This document shows positions 28,288 to 56,830 of a stretch of DNA of 64,000 nucleotides, one piece after another. Under the pieces are notes generated by a model. It worked only from the letters and a program-made list of their open reading frames with translations, was not told where the DNA came from and searched no databases. The stretch lies in NCBI GenBank assembly GCA_015232015.1, contig JADGAM010000001.1:1734-65733 (forward strand). Direction: 5' to 3'. Source of the DNA: Oligoflexia bacterium (GTDB lineage: Bacteria > Bdellovibrionota > Bacteriovoracia > Bacteriovoracales > Bacteriovoracaceae). Within the stretch, counting starts at the first letter, position 1, and every line of letters starts with the position of its first letter. The position numbers and the translations under genes are program-made.

Positions 28288-30315
28288 ATGTTTCTAAATT
28301 TTAATTTTAATTTTAATTCTTGTAAAAAAATAATAGCAAATGATGATTTTGTTTTTAATTATAATTTTTTAACTTTTGTTATTCCCTTCCTAGTAGCACT
28401 GCTTACTTGTTTAGGTGGGGAACTTTTTATCTACTATTTTTATAATCCCGAGGTGACCAGCATTTTGCAAATTGCAAAAGAATTAACTGTTAAAACTGAT
28501 TTTACTCCAGAACCAAAAGAGCGAATGCAGTTTTATTTTGCATTCCTGGGGATTCCCCTCTTTTTTATTATTTATTATTTCAGTCTAAAAAATATATTAA
28601 AAAAAATCTCATCGCAAAATATTAATCGCATTTCATTCATATTATCACTAATTTTAATTCCCTCAATTATCACTCTGATTTTTATTGATTATAAAGAATA
28701 TTATAAAGCTTACTTTGAACATTCATATTTCTATGATCATTATTTAATATATACCTTGGCGATAATTATATTTCTTTTTTCATTAAGATATATTTCTAAA
28801 ATATTTATTAAATACCCCATAATAAAAAAAATAATTTTATTATCAGCATTTATATTTATTATTGTGAGCATAAGAGCTCTTTATAAGAATAATATGTTTT
28901 ATTATCCCAATAGTATTTTTCATGTAGATGCTGTATTTTATTCAATCATTCAAGTTGCTAAAGGAACGGCCATGTTAACTGATGGGCTTGTTAATACCTA
29001 TGGACTCTATGCTCAGTTTTTAGGTCCGATATTTGCCAATAATATTCATGAAAATTTTGCTAATATAAGCAAAGCATTTGCAATTCTTGTGGCATTCTGC
29101 TTTTCACTGTTTTTTCTTACTCTTTATTTTGAAATAAAAAATAAGTTAATTCTTTATATTGGAATTATTAGTTCCATTTGGATATATATGTTTGCGAAGA
29201 TAAGAGATAATGATTATTATTTTCAATACTATCCACTAAGAGCACTTTTTCCTGCATTAACGTTTTTTATGGCCTTTCTGTATAAGAAAAACCAATCTAA
29301 ATTTCTTTATTTTTTATCATTTCCTCTCTTTGCACTGGGAATATTATGGAATCCCGATCATGGTATAGGGTGTTTTATAACTTGGACTGTATTTGTAATT
29401 TATGTAGATAGAAAAAGAGCACTTTATTCTTCTATATTATGGAATTTAGCATATGCAACTTTATCAATAATAATTATATTTTCCCTCTATGTGCTTACTA
29501 TAAAATATTTCTACGGAGTAACTCCTGAACTGCTAAAACTTTTTAATCTAGTTACGATTTTTCCAAAATTTGGATACATGATGCTTCCAATGTCTCTTTT
29601 TCATCCTTGGAATATTTATCTATTATTATCATTAACAGGCATTGTTTATGCCATAAAAAAATATTTTGAATATGATAAAAATAGTGATCAAAATGAAAAA
29701 AATTTTTCAGCGGAGATGTTACTTGTTTGGAGTTTACTAAGCATAATTTGCTTGGGTTATTTTCAAGGCAGGAGTCACCCCAATACCTTTATTACGATCT
29801 TACCTGCATATATGATACAAATTACTCTCATAACAAATGCTCTCTGGTATTCACAAAAAAATCTATTTATGAGAGTTGCCTGTTTTATTGGAATGTTTTC
29901 TCTTTTAATGAATACCTATGATATGGGAGATTATATAAAGCGTTACCTAATAAAAGGGGACCCTCTTTACACTTTTTCAGAATTTGATAGCAGTATTCCT
30001 GAGCACATATATGCTGAAACAAAATTTATTAGAAAGTATGTTAATGAAAAGGAAAATGAAAAAGTAGTAATTTGGATTGTGAATGCACAAGCATTGCATT
30101 TTAGCGAGCTAAACATTTCTTCTGCAATAAATCCAGCAATAGTGGATTTATTCCTTAAAGAAGATGTTGATAGAATTAATTTAGAAATAGAAAAAAAATT
30201 ACCCAAGATATTTATACAAGATAGTGAACATTTTTTTGATAAAGTTATACAAGAAAAATATAAAAAAGTAGACAGCTTAGGTGCCATTACCTTTTATCAA
30301 AGAAAAGACGCTTAG
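28288..30315 (+). CDS. Polytopic membrane protein, possible GT-C-like glycosyltransferase
   Basis: ~12 hydrophobic segments in a 675 aa ORF. Confidence 0.5.
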   Translation: MFLNFNFNFNSCKKIIANDDFVFNYNFLTFVIPFLVALLTCLGGELFIYYFYNPEVTSILQIAKELTVKTDFTPEPKERMQFYFAFLGIPLFFIIYYFSLKNILKKISSQNINRISFILSLILIPSIITLIFIDYKEYYKAYFEHSYFYDHYLIYTLAIIIFLFSLRYISKIFIKYPIIKKIILLSAFIFIIVSIRALYKNNMFYYPNSIFHVDAVFYSIIQVAKGTAMLTDGLVNTYGLYAQFLGPIFANNIHENFANISKAFAILVAFCFSLFFLTLYFEIKNKLILYIGIISSIWIYMFAKIRDNDYYFQYYPLRALFPALTFFMAFLYKKNQSKFLYFLSFPLFALGILWNPDHGIGCFITWTVFVIYVDRKRALYSSILWNLAYATLSIIIIFSLYVLTIKYFYGVTPELLKLFNLVTIFPKFGYMMLPMSLFHPWNIYLLLSLTGIVYAIKKYFEYDKNSDQNEKNFSAEMLLVWSLLSIICLGYFQGRSHPNTFITILPAYMIQITLITNALWYSQKNLFMRVACFIGMFSLLMNTYDMGDYIKRYLIKGDPLYTFSEFDSSIPEHIYAETKFIRKYVNEKENEKVVIWIVNAQALHFSELNISSAINPAIVDLFLKEDVDRINLEIEKKLPKIFIQDSEHFFDKVIQEKYKKVDSLGAITFYQRKDA

Positions 30316-30395
30316 GGCCCATCGAAAAATAACTGCTCCTTTTTGTATCCACTCTTTATTCTACATTAGGTTAGGCCTCTCCTGATACACTATAT
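30312..30395 (+). repeat. Half copy of the 2102..2287 palindromic element
   Basis: TTAGGGCCCATCGAAAAATAACTGCTCCTTTTTGTATCCACTCTTTATTCTACATTAGG aligns with both arms of 2102..2287; the element supplies the TAG stop of the upstream CDS. Confidence 0.8.
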
Positions 30396-31016: not shown

Positions 31017-31078
31017 AAAATAAAATTTCACACGCATACTATAATCTGGAATTGTTCTTGAAAGAATAACTTAAACTA

Positions 31079-31114
31079 AATTAGTCGCTAGAGCGAAAGC
31101 GCCGGCGACTAATT
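31079..31114. repeat. 36-nt hairpin repeat, copy 1
   Basis: AATTAGTCGC-TAGAGCGAAAGCGCCG-GCGACTAATT. Confidence 0.85.
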
Positions 31115-31360
31115 ATGAGAGATTATTATGGGGACATTTTGAAACCAGCTCTGAAATTTTTCAGATGAGTCTATGATTTTTTTATTTGAAGGTGTGAGAG
31201 CTATGTATTTATGTAATTATTATTTATAGAATTTACCTCTATAAAAATATTATATTGCTTTTAAAACCAAAATAAGGCAATATCCTGATCTGTTCGATGG
31301 AGTTCGCTAAAGTTCAAAATTCGCCTCAACAAATAATAACAATTTAACAGAAGGAGACAT

Positions 31361-33324: not shown

Positions 33325-33343
33325 TTCAATATAATTTCAAATT

Positions 33344-33379
33344 AATTAGTCGCCGGCACTTTCGCTCCAGCGATTAATT
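33344..33379. repeat. 36-nt hairpin repeat, copy 2 (opposite orientation)
   Basis: AATTAGTCGC-CGGCACTTTCGCTCCA-GCGATTAATT; reverse complement matches 31079..31114. Confidence 0.85.
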
Positions 33380-33473
33380 AAACTTAAATTCAAATTATTT
33401 GATCTCTTGTAATAAAAATAATAATCTTTAAATACATATAATTAATCTGCCTTGCGGGGGAGGGGGGAGAAAT

Positions 33474-42242: not shown

Positions 42243-42319
42243 GAATCTGCTACATCTGCGTCCGTGATCGTGACTTACTGTCGCACGCGCTGACATCGCG
42301 ATCCTATTGACAGCGTTTC
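42243..42319 (-). repeat. Dispersed ORF-compatible repeat, intergenic copy (22 nt longer)
   Basis: Reverse complement GAAACGCTGTCAATAGGATCGCGATGTCAG...GCAGATGTAGCAGATTC matches 44180..44234 and 55641..55695. Confidence 0.85.
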
Positions 42320-42441
42320 GATCAAAGAATTTTAGTTTATTAAGTTAGATAAAATTTATAAGATTGAATTGGTAGAGTAAAGAAGCGAAGCTAAACAGAA
42401 ATATAAAAATATAAAAATATAAAAAAGGAAAATGAATAAGA

Positions 42442-44325
42442 ATGTATTTGCTTGGTAATAAAAATAGTTTTTTAGATGATAAATTTAAAAAAATTGGTAA
42501 AAAAACATTTAACTTGCATTTGATGAAACATGCCTTGTTTAATGTTCCTGAAGGAGTTGTAATCACCTATGATCAATGGGCGTTGGAGAGTGGAAAGAAT
42601 GATTTTGACTTACTATTAGAACAATATGTGCATCTTATAGGAGGTTTTCCAGTTGTTGTTAGATCTAGTGGTCAACTGGAAGATTTAAACAATGCTAGCT
42701 TGGCAGGACTTTATCAAACATTTTTAGAAGTAAATGGAATAGCAGAATTAAAAGAAACGATAAAGAAATGTTTTAAGTCCGCTACTTATAAAAGAATAAG
42801 TGAATGTCTTAAAAAAATGAAAAATACAGTCACTAATTCAGATTTATCAGAAGTAAATTTATCTGAGGATTTTTTAAAGAAACAAGTGTCTGTGTTAGTG
42901 CAAAAGATGGTCGATTCTAATATTTCAGGAGTAGCATTCACAGTTGATCCTCTTACAGGAAAAGAGGAACATGTAAGAATTGAAGCAGTCAAAGGATTGG
43001 GAAAAAAATTGCTATCAGGTATTATTACTCCCACAACATTTGTTATAGATAACAAAGATGGAATGTTGATAAATTATTATGAGGGAGATGAGATTATTGA
43101 ATTAAAAACAGAGCAGCTATTAGAATTAGTAGATAATGTTTTTAGAATACAAGCATATTTTAAATCACCTCAAGGTGTAAAATGGAGCGTAGATAGTAAA
43201 GGAAAATTGTGGATATTACAATCAATGCCTATTACTAATATAAAATGGAGAACAGATTTTAATGGATATAGCAAAGTTGATTTAAAAGATGAAGGAGTAT
43301 CATTTAAAGTTTGTACTCCAATGATGTTTTCTCTCTATAATATGGCGATGTCTTACGGAATGGATCGCTATTTTAAAAATTTAAATCTTAAAAAAGAAAA
43401 TATAGAAAATATAAAAAATATAGTAAATAATAAACCAGGTAAAAAAAGTAGTAGTGATAAGTGGATGATCTATAAGTATGGCAGGGCCTATTGGAATGCT
43501 AGACTAGCAAAGCAATTATTATTCAAAATTCCTGGCTTTAATGAAAAAGCTTTTGATGATAATCTTGGAATAGAAAAAGATTATGGAGCGAAAGGGCCAC
43601 ATAGAACACAAATTTGTTTTAAAACCATAATCGAGGCCATATCACTTTTGATTGCTCTAAATAAAGAATATAAAAATTCTTTAAAAATGTCGGAAGATTT
43701 TAAAAAAAAATTTCCTACGATTATTGAAAAATATTTAAAAAAATTAGAAAATATAAAAATAATTTCTTGTGATGATTTTTATAAGGATTTTCAGGATATA
43801 TTTTTGAATCTTTTTTTTAATACTGAAACAAGTTATCTTAGAATTGTTTATAATAATATTAATTTTCAGAGTGATTTTGAAAATCGCTTAAAGTTTTCAC
43901 CGATTACAAAAATTAGATTTAGATCATCACTAAAAAAATCACGCCATTTTCTTACGAATAGAGAAAAGATGAGAGAATTTTCAACTATAACTTATTCTTT
44001 GATAATAAAATATCTGTTGGAGATGGGAAATCGATTAAAAGAATTGGGTTTTATCGAATGTGCGAATGATATTTTCTTTTTTTATATAGATGAACTAATT
44101 GAATTTTGTAGTAAAAAAACTTTTTCATATAATTTTTTCGATGAAAGCAGTTTTGCCTTAGGTGGGGCCGATGAAGGCCGAAATGCTGTCAATAGGATTT
44201 CGATGTCAGTACTTTGTACAGACGTAGCAGATTCTATAAAGAAAGAACTAAAATATAGGAAGATTTTTTATAAAGGAATGACCAATATAAATGCACCTAA
44301 TAGTCTTAAAGACTATAATTCATGA
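42442..44325 (+). CDS. PEP/pyruvate-binding (PPDK_N-like) domain protein without recognisable phosphohistidine swivel domain
   Basis: VVRSSGQLEDLNNASLAGLYQTFLEV, VLVQKMVDSNISGVAFTVDPLTG, KWSVDSKGKLWILQSMPIT. Confidence 0.8.
   Translation: MYLLGNKNSFLDDKFKKIGKKTFNLHLMKHALFNVPEGVVITYDQWALESGKNDFDLLLEQYVHLIGGFPVVVRSSGQLEDLNNASLAGLYQTFLEVNGIAELKETIKKCFKSATYKRISECLKKMKNTVTNSDLSEVNLSEDFLKKQVSVLVQKMVDSNISGVAFTVDPLTGKEEHVRIEAVKGLGKKLLSGIITPTTFVIDNKDGMLINYYEGDEIIELKTEQLLELVDNVFRIQAYFKSPQGVKWSVDSKGKLWILQSMPITNIKWRTDFNGYSKVDLKDEGVSFKVCTPMMFSLYNMAMSYGMDRYFKNLNLKKENIENIKNIVNNKPGKKSSSDKWMIYKYGRAYWNARLAKQLLFKIPGFNEKAFDDNLGIEKDYGAKGPHRTQICFKTIIEAISLLIALNKEYKNSLKMSEDFKKKFPTIIEKYLKKLENIKIISCDDFYKDFQDIFLNLFFNTETSYLRIVYNNINFQSDFENRLKFSPITKIRFRSSLKKSRHFLTNREKMREFSTITYSLIIKYLLEMGNRLKELGFIECANDIFFFYIDELIEFCSKKTFSYNFFDESSFALGGADEGRNAVNRISMSVLCTDVADSIKKELKYRKIFYKGMTNINAPNSLKDYNS
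44180..44234 (+). repeat. Dispersed ORF-compatible repeat, in-frame copy inside the PEP-binding protein
   Basis: GAAATGCTGTCAATAGGATTTCGATGTCAGTACTTTGTACAGACGTAGCAGATTC; encodes NAVNRISMSVLCTDVADS. Confidence 0.85.
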
Positions 44326-55435: not shown

Positions 55436-56830
55436 TTATAACAGATGATGATTGATTTTTAGCAAGATAGGTATTAAACCGCACCCTTCGACAATTATTT
55501 TTTCATTTGAATAATTATTTATTGTTTTAGCAATCTTTTTGTACTTTTTAATATTATTTAAGCTAACTGTTTGTTCTATTAAATTTGGTAAATTTGATAA
55601 ACTTGGTAAAGTTGATATTTTTGATAAATTATGTAGATTTGAATCTGCGACGTCTGCGTGAAAAGCTGAGATCGCCATCTTATTGACAGTGTTTCCGCTA
55701 AGACCGAAACTGCTTTCACATGAATTTAATATTTTATTTTTGTAATAGTTGTGACTAAATCCCTCTTTTTTAATATATGGGACGAAGTAATCGCCAGATG
55801 ATTTAATTTCAATATATGGTATGTCTTCTAAAATAGAGTTAATACTAGAGATAATCAAATTGTTAGATAACCTTAAAGGATAAGGATTATTTTGAGTGAA
55901 TTGAAGATATGAATAAGTAAAATTTGTATCAACACCATAATCACCATAATCATAATAATCACATAATTTTATATTTTTTTCTTTTTGGTCTTGTTTTTGT
56001 TCGTGCTCTTGAGCAAGAACGCCCCCTCTTCTAATAAACATTTCATTTAATTCTTTATTTAATTTTTTTACATTTAAATTATAACTTGGCGAAAGTAGAG
56101 AAACAAATAGTTCAAATATAGTAAAATTATTAGAATGGTTACCTATGTAATGAATGGTTATTAATTGTAAAAGATCGTTGAAAGTTTTTAAGAATAATTT
56201 TTCAGTAGATAGTACTTTAGCTTTTTGAATATTAAAAATTGTTGTAATGAAACTTTGTAATATTTTAAAATAATTTTGTTGATTATTTTCTAAACCGCAA
56301 TTACATAGATCACACTTAAATGTAAAATATTTTTCATCGATCTTTCGAAAGTTAGTTTTACCTTCTTCTAATAACAGAGAGCAGATATTTTCTATATGTT
56401 TATAAAAATGCTCCTCAATTAAGGGTAGATCTTCATTAGTTATTTCAGTTGGATCCATAAATAAAAAAGGAAATTTTCTAAGTATCTCCTTTAAATTTCT
56501 TTGAACACTATTTCCAAGCAGTATTTGTTTACCCTCGAAAACGATAGTGTATGTATCCTTATTGATGTAATTATCTAAATATTTCAAAGGAACAATATTG
56601 TATTTATTTGCAATTTTTTTTATGAGAGACAATTCTAAGAGATTAATCTTTTCTATTATATTTCGGGGTATGTTAATTTGTGGATTATCAATTATTAAAA
56701 CTTTATGCCCAATATTTAGTAAATGTATACCAATTATATAAGAGATAAAATTTTCTGCCTTTAAAATATAATCATAAACATTATTCATATTTTTTTTCAG
56801 GCCCTTAAATTTTTTGCATAAAATTTTCAA
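55436..56830 (-). CDS. Hypothetical protein, weak resemblance to an FAD/NAD-binding oxidoreductase N-terminus
   Basis: YDYILKAENFISYIIGIHLLNIGHKVLIIDN; CxxC pair CDLCNCG; contains in-frame dispersed repeat. Confidence 0.5.
   Translation of the reverse strand: MKILCKKFKGLKKNMNNVYDYILKAENFISYIIGIHLLNIGHKVLIIDNPQINIPRNIIEKINLLELSLIKKIANKYNIVPLKYLDNYINKDTYTIVFEGKQILLGNSVQRNLKEILRKFPFLFMDPTEITNEDLPLIEEHFYKHIENICSLLLEEGKTNFRKIDEKYFTFKCDLCNCGLENNQQNYFKILQSFITTIFNIQKAKVLSTEKLFLKTFNDLLQLITIHYIGNHSNNFTIFELFVSLLSPSYNLNVKKLNKELNEMFIRRGGVLAQEHEQKQDQKEKNIKLCDYYDYGDYGVDTNFTYSYLQFTQNNPYPLRLSNNLIISSINSILEDIPYIEIKSSGDYFVPYIKKEGFSHNYYKNKILNSCESSFGLSGNTVNKMAISAFHADVADSNLHNLSKISTLPSLSNLPNLIEQTVSLNNIKKYKKIAKTINNYSNEKIIVEGCGLIPILLKINHHLL
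55641..55695 (-). repeat. Dispersed ORF-compatible repeat, in-frame copy inside 55436..56830
   Basis: Reverse complement GAAACACTGTCAATAAGATGGCGATCTCAGCTTTTCACGCAGACGTCGCAGATTC; encodes NTVNKMAISAFHADVADS. Confidence 0.85.

Follow-up and report, generated by a model that had tools for sequence, protein, structure and literature searches.

How does the same short segment of DNA come to lie, in the same reading frame, inside two unrelated proteins of one bacterium, with a third copy between genes? The question is raised by a 64,000-nt stretch of an Oligoflexia genome (hereafter the window), in which an earlier note had described a dispersed repeat of about 55 nt and likened it to the Rickettsia palindromic elements (RPE). 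Based on searches of the MAG containing the window (4,908,165 bases, 413 contigs, 84.7% complete) and on comparison with a sister MAG of the same genus, Oligoflexia bacterium nKLKbin12 (JADFZW01), we conclude that the repeat is very probably a non-autonomous selfish element of two hairpins, about 84–132 nt long, which acts in an RPE-like manner and has spread through the genome.

Repeat copies and host genes in the window

All three copies were found at the sites and on the strands originally given for them, each as a pair of blocks (44180–44209 with 44218–44234, plus strand; 55666–55695 with 55641–55657, minus strand; 42290–42319 with 42243–42259, minus strand). Their occurrence exceeds chance, as none of 100 shuffled sequences contained any left-block match and none of 100 contained three right-block matches. 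The repeat is real, but its length had been underestimated, the 55 nt being only the right part of the 84–132-nt element. The features of the window that bear on the question are as follows, with bit scores from a covariance model (CM) trained on 13 element copies:

44136..44234, plus strand: complete copy, 99 nt, hairpin 1 with a 15-nt loop expansion and short hairpin 2 (90.7 bits); in frame inside ORF 42442–44325, encoding FFDESSFALGGADEGRNAVNRISMSVLCTDVADS
55641..55724, minus strand: complete copy, 84 nt, short form (76.4 bits); in frame inside ORF 55436–56830, encoding NSCESSFGLSGNTVNKMAISAFHADVADS
42243..42319, minus strand: intergenic copy, hairpin 2 in its long form plus 4 nt (37.3 bits over 42243–42364)
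42442..44325, plus strand: host gene 1, PPDK_N (pyruvate phosphate dikinase, ATP-binding) protein, 627 aa
55436..56830, minus strand: host gene 2, 464-aa protein with no Pfam family, the insert lying in its poorly conserved C-terminal part

The copies first located at 44180 and 55641 do lie within ORFs and share one frame. In the intergenic copy the left arm of hairpin 1 is missing; if read, this copy would be out of frame, as had been proposed, and its 22 extra nucleotides are accounted for by the long form of hairpin 2 (+18 nt, 102 vs. 84) and 4 further nucleotides.

The host previously called a PEP-binding protein is a PPDK_N-domain protein, but the degradation of its gene had been missed. 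Compared with the 830-aa sister orthologue, it lacks about 129 aa internally and about 128 aa at the C-terminus and, judged from its sequence, is probably a decayed pseudogene; the tolerance of insertion therefore rests on the other host genes, genome-wide. The insert does interrupt the DIFFFYIDEL...RKIFYK region of this protein, the sister orthologue reading DVFFFYINELINFCKEKKFPHNFY-IEKELVYRKTFY there. For host gene 2, protein alignment with the sister-MAG orthologue (41% identical) revealed no element at the position of the insert.

Other repeats occur in the window. At 2102–2286 (arms 2104–2192 and 2196–2284) lies another dispersed palindrome, about 185 bp long with AGGGCCCGTCAAAAAATAA... 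at its ends, which looks like a TIR-type MITE; a further copy of it is located at L093 98–282, L076, L092 and L099 carry single ends, and some of its copies or ends adjoin copies of the two-hairpin element. At 30293–30344 there is a related single arm of this GGGCCC repeat, inverted with respect to 2254–2305. Finally, 48-nt inverted repeats (31068–31115 and 33343–33390; 85% complementary), about 2.2 kb apart, bracket two ORFs of 411 and 167 aa and could be the ends of a mobile element.

Architecture and distribution of the element

Read together with their flanks, the copies are composed of two adjacent imperfect hairpins with the consensus TTCCTATGAAAGCAGTTTCGGCC-loop-GGCCGAAACGCTGTCAATAGGATCGCGATGTCAGCGC-loop-GCGCAGACGTAGCAGATTC. 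In hairpin 1, TCCTATGAAAGCAGTTTCGG pairs with the right arm, and the loop sometimes carries a GC-rich expansion of 15 nt or longer; hairpin 2, in which TCGCGATGTCAGCGC pairs with GCGCAGACGTAGCAGA, is either short, giving an 84-nt element, or long, giving one of 102 nt. There is also a second subtype of the element, with CGCCAATGCCAG...CAGGCGTGCAGATTC. In an alignment of 28 copies, 27 from the same genome and one from the sister MAG, the stems contained 24 cells with double-sided changes, where shuffled controls gave 9.7 and slid controls no more than 10, and 10 stem pairs showed a double change. Paired cells reached 86.4%; keeping in mind that fitting the alignment to the CM biases this percentage towards the model, we take the double-sided changes as the safer measure.

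Terminal inverted repeats across the whole element were not found, the two hairpins being separate and the ends, TTCCTATG and GCAGATTC, being neither complementary nor inverted repeats of each other. Among the 24 copies compared for their flanks, A was present at −2 in 19 and T at −1 in 15, and the comparison gave no signal of target duplication. The letters CGTAG, replaced by CGTGC in the second subtype, sit within the paired right-hand stem, and no unpaired GTAG or CGTC tag was found at a hairpin end. Three element-bearing loci had no match in Rfam up to E = 1.

The doubt that the three window copies might be the only ones in the genome is removed by its search. BLAST with a window copy returned 34 matches, and the CM returned 37 at the E≤1 used as threshold (30 at ≥35 bits; most 84–132 nt long), corresponding to about 35 copies spread over about 30 contigs of one 4.9-Mb genome. 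By CM the sister MAG contained one weak copy, and a DNA search of that MAG with its own copy recovered just one full copy. The CM search of 369 genomes of the phylum, including these two, detected no element in the 367 others under strict filters with 11 candidates scored per genome. A 22-base core pattern of the element had no match in GTDB genome contigs or IMG/VR, the absence from genome contigs arguing against close identity to RPE families, and the element consensus had none among phage and plasmid records. Literature searches, covering mostly papers outside subscription, turned up no such repeats in Bdellovibrio or Oligoflexia.

In-frame copies within conserved genes

Twelve well-aligned copies and a weaker thirteenth sit inside ORFs with homologues. 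Outside the window, the hosts are:

L068: ATPase_2 protein, sense, in-frame copy
L071: Ppx/GppA protein, two copies, sense, in frame
L073: trypsin-like protease, sense, in-frame copy directly behind the signal peptide
L074: methyltransferase, sense, in-frame copy
L075: histidine kinase, two copies, sense, in frame
L078: NtrC-type regulator, sense, in-frame copy
L081: family-5 solute-binding protein, sense, in-frame copy
L083: FlhG/MinD-like ATPase, sense, in-frame copy
L095: radical-SAM activase, the weaker copy, sense, same frame

Whether most copies keep one frame had been suggested as a check, and the answer is clear for the genic copies, all of which lie on the sense strand in the single common frame SYESSFGQGRNAVNRIAMSALRADVADS. 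Their length is a multiple of three in 12/12 aligned cases, vs. 4/13 among non-genic copies (Fisher p = 4.6e-4), and the consensus of the short, mid and long forms is free of stop codons in that one frame only, of six. The inserts would add about 28–45 residues to the host protein, with the same peptide theme recurring across many hosts; the Pfam HisKA match ends just ahead of the insertion. While ORFs of at least 100 aa make up about 83–91% of the examined sequence, only about 40% of the copies are genic, an under-representation that is expected if most genic insertions get removed.

The sister MAG has orthologues of most host genes, and DNA alignment with it showed clean, element-sized gaps at window position 44136, in the ATPase_2 gene, at the second insert of the Ppx/GppA gene and in the FlhG/MinD-like gene (L083). 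For the radical-SAM activase the DNA agrees with absence, with other indels nearby, and for further hosts the insert is absent from orthologues at the level of protein alignment. In the case of Ppx/GppA, none of the 12 orthologues compared across family and phylum contains either insert, and the residues on the two sides of the second one join directly in the alignment. The segment therefore does not behave as the ancestral domain that the earlier note had held out as the contrary outcome: orthologues of host gene 1 and of most other hosts compared lack it, which indicates that the element entered the genes after divergence. The stronger cases of tolerance are L068, L071, L074, L075 and L083, where the length of the protein minus its inserts is close to that of the orthologues.

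Divergence from the consensus is about 13% in genic and non-genic copies alike. Codon changes in the genic copies comprised 19 synonymous, 72 nonsynonymous and 0 stop changes, the random expectation being 23% synonymous, and those in non-genic copies 25, 64 and 1, respectively; no signal of protein-level selection on the insert peptide was seen in these changes. As they occur at the random ratio, only an open frame and a length divisible by three are kept, and the peptide is not. An AlphaFold2 model of the Ppx host has a confident core, which matches Ppx/GppA crystal structures, and values of pLDDT <50 at residues 30–75 and 146–173, so that both inserts are predicted to be disordered loops on an intact fold.

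The remaining copies lie between genes or at their ends. At L069 5959–6062, a 181-aa ORF extends into the left end of a copy and takes its stop codon from it. A 123-nt open-frame copy (L077 6045–6167) stops 2 nt short of a plausible start ATG for a membrane protein; it may lengthen that protein at the N-terminus or form a hairpin in the 5' untranslated region. On L087 the N-terminus of a PstS-like protein contains a copy in a different frame, and on L086 a right-half remnant keeps the usual frame. Two fragments consisting of hairpin 1 only (L088 3183–3237 and 5592–5676) are antisense but open inside ORFs for a chorismate-binding enzyme and a membrane protein, and may mean that a single hairpin can also insert or be left behind.

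Alternative explanations and possible mode of movement

An ancestral or functional protein motif of about 30 residues, common to the hosts or spread as a domain, would explain why one peptide theme is met across many proteins, but it is refuted by the element-free orthologues and is hard to reconcile with the many intergenic copies, with codon changes free of protein-level constraint and with stems that covary as nucleic acid; we regard it as highly improbable. Just as remote is the idea that the insert never reaches the protein or the mRNA, owing to translational bypass or RNA processing comparable to mitochondrial byp elements or self-splicing introns. Strong hairpins within ORFs would suit such a process, yet a skipped insert needs neither an open frame nor a 3n length, both of which were found in 12/12 copies, and the element falls far below intron size, with no Rfam match at the three loci queried. 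Inspection of the sequence also led to rejection of an integron attC site, as there is no attC core motif and copies lie inside ORFs, and of an intron, for which the element is far too short.

The alternatives that treat the repeat as mobile DNA of another class deserve more weight. Membership in a REP/RAYT-type family, with GTAG- or CGTC-tagged palindromes and genic copies that are REP dimers, is suggested by the two-hairpin layout, the absent target duplication, the CGTAG within the right-hand stem, the existence of Y1_Tnp genes in the genome and the fact that REP dimers inside ORFs, coding for 20–30 aa, are already known (PMC3733652). Considering, however, that the GTAG/CGTC letters form part of a paired stem and do not persist in the CAGGCGTGCAG subtype, that no copy is near a Y1 transposase and that the element is one fixed unit of 84–132 nt, we find this assignment possible but doubtful. 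A MITE descended from a (DDE) insertion sequence with TIRs would likewise be short, dispersed and non-coding, and some copies do carry internal deletions; the ends TTCCTATG and GCAGATTC are, however, no inverted repeats, target duplication is absent and no parental insertion sequence ending in them was found, which makes such an origin unlikely.

Returning to the selfish two-hairpin repeat, the comparisons show that it inserts without detectable target duplication at sites that are empty in orthologues, and that the genic copies which survive are those leaving the host gene readable, being sense, open in frame and 3n in length. Selection would purge insertions that break genes by being out of frame or reversed, and would otherwise be blind to the peptide; we infer that the element is not kept for a protein function. 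More tentatively, a Y1-type (IS200/IS605-like) transposase acting in trans may mobilise the hairpins while the DNA is single-stranded. Hairpins with compensatory changes, together with the absence of both terminal inverted repeats and target duplication, fit Y1-type transposition; the genome has five Y1_Tnp genes, none of which adjoins an element copy, and we give transposition of this type in trans a real but minor chance. The circulating forms of 84, 99, 102 and 114 nt are multiples of three apart and have the same single open frame. That the element itself is shaped for carriage in genes, beyond host-side filtering of random insertions, seems rather unlikely to us; if true, it would mean that a selfish DNA had evolved an architecture that genes tolerate.

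Comparison with known systems

The RPE, whose source studies are Ogata et al. 2000 and 2002, are described in PMC2229807, PMC10969869 and PMC4316617 as elements of 105–146 nt found in frame in many genes. On these descriptions they share with the Oligoflexia element a size of about 100–150 nt, strong pairing and many copies, both intergenic and in frame in unrelated genes, and their host proteins, too, apparently tolerate the insert. They differ in that their host is an obligate intracellular alphaproteobacterium, in contrast to a 4.9-Mb genome, and in that an RPE is one element with terminal inverted repeats, whereas the Oligoflexia element is made of two adjacent hairpins. The likeness thus concerns behaviour as described, and the two are not demonstrably homologous; the analogy drawn by the earlier note is supported in the sense of "works like" and is not evidence for common descent. 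The same kind of likeness, by description, extends to the Wolbachia palindromic elements (WPE; Ogata et al. 2005, as cited in PMC2229807), protein-coding palindromic repeats from a different host lineage.

Intragenic REP dimers of the GTAG and CGTC families, described in Opitutus terrae and Rickettsia conorii (PMC3733652), are likewise palindromes, often paired and some in frame in ORFs, sometimes with two per gene (PMC3733652). Unlike them, the Oligoflexia element has no conserved unpaired GTAG/CGTC tag, is a constant ordered pair and has no RAYT gene adjoining. Enterobacterial RU/ERIC sequences are also short repeats with an open frame fused to host ORFs, but these fusions involve mostly small or unique ORFs (PMC2759123), whereas the Oligoflexia hosts include many conserved enzymes and regulators with empty-site orthologues. 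The roughly 13 protein inserts, most with insert-free orthologues, offer a test set for effects on fold and activity, and the test at the codon level shows that an insert can drift freely provided its frame remains open. Until now, in-frame, gene-invading palindromes were known chiefly in Rickettsia, Wolbachia and some REP-rich bacteria, and Oligoflexia adds a lineage to the short list of those in which such palindromes have invaded conserved genes. This suggests that hairpin repeats with a single open frame lead generally to the phenomenon known from RPE, which would not be peculiar to reductive intracellular genomes.
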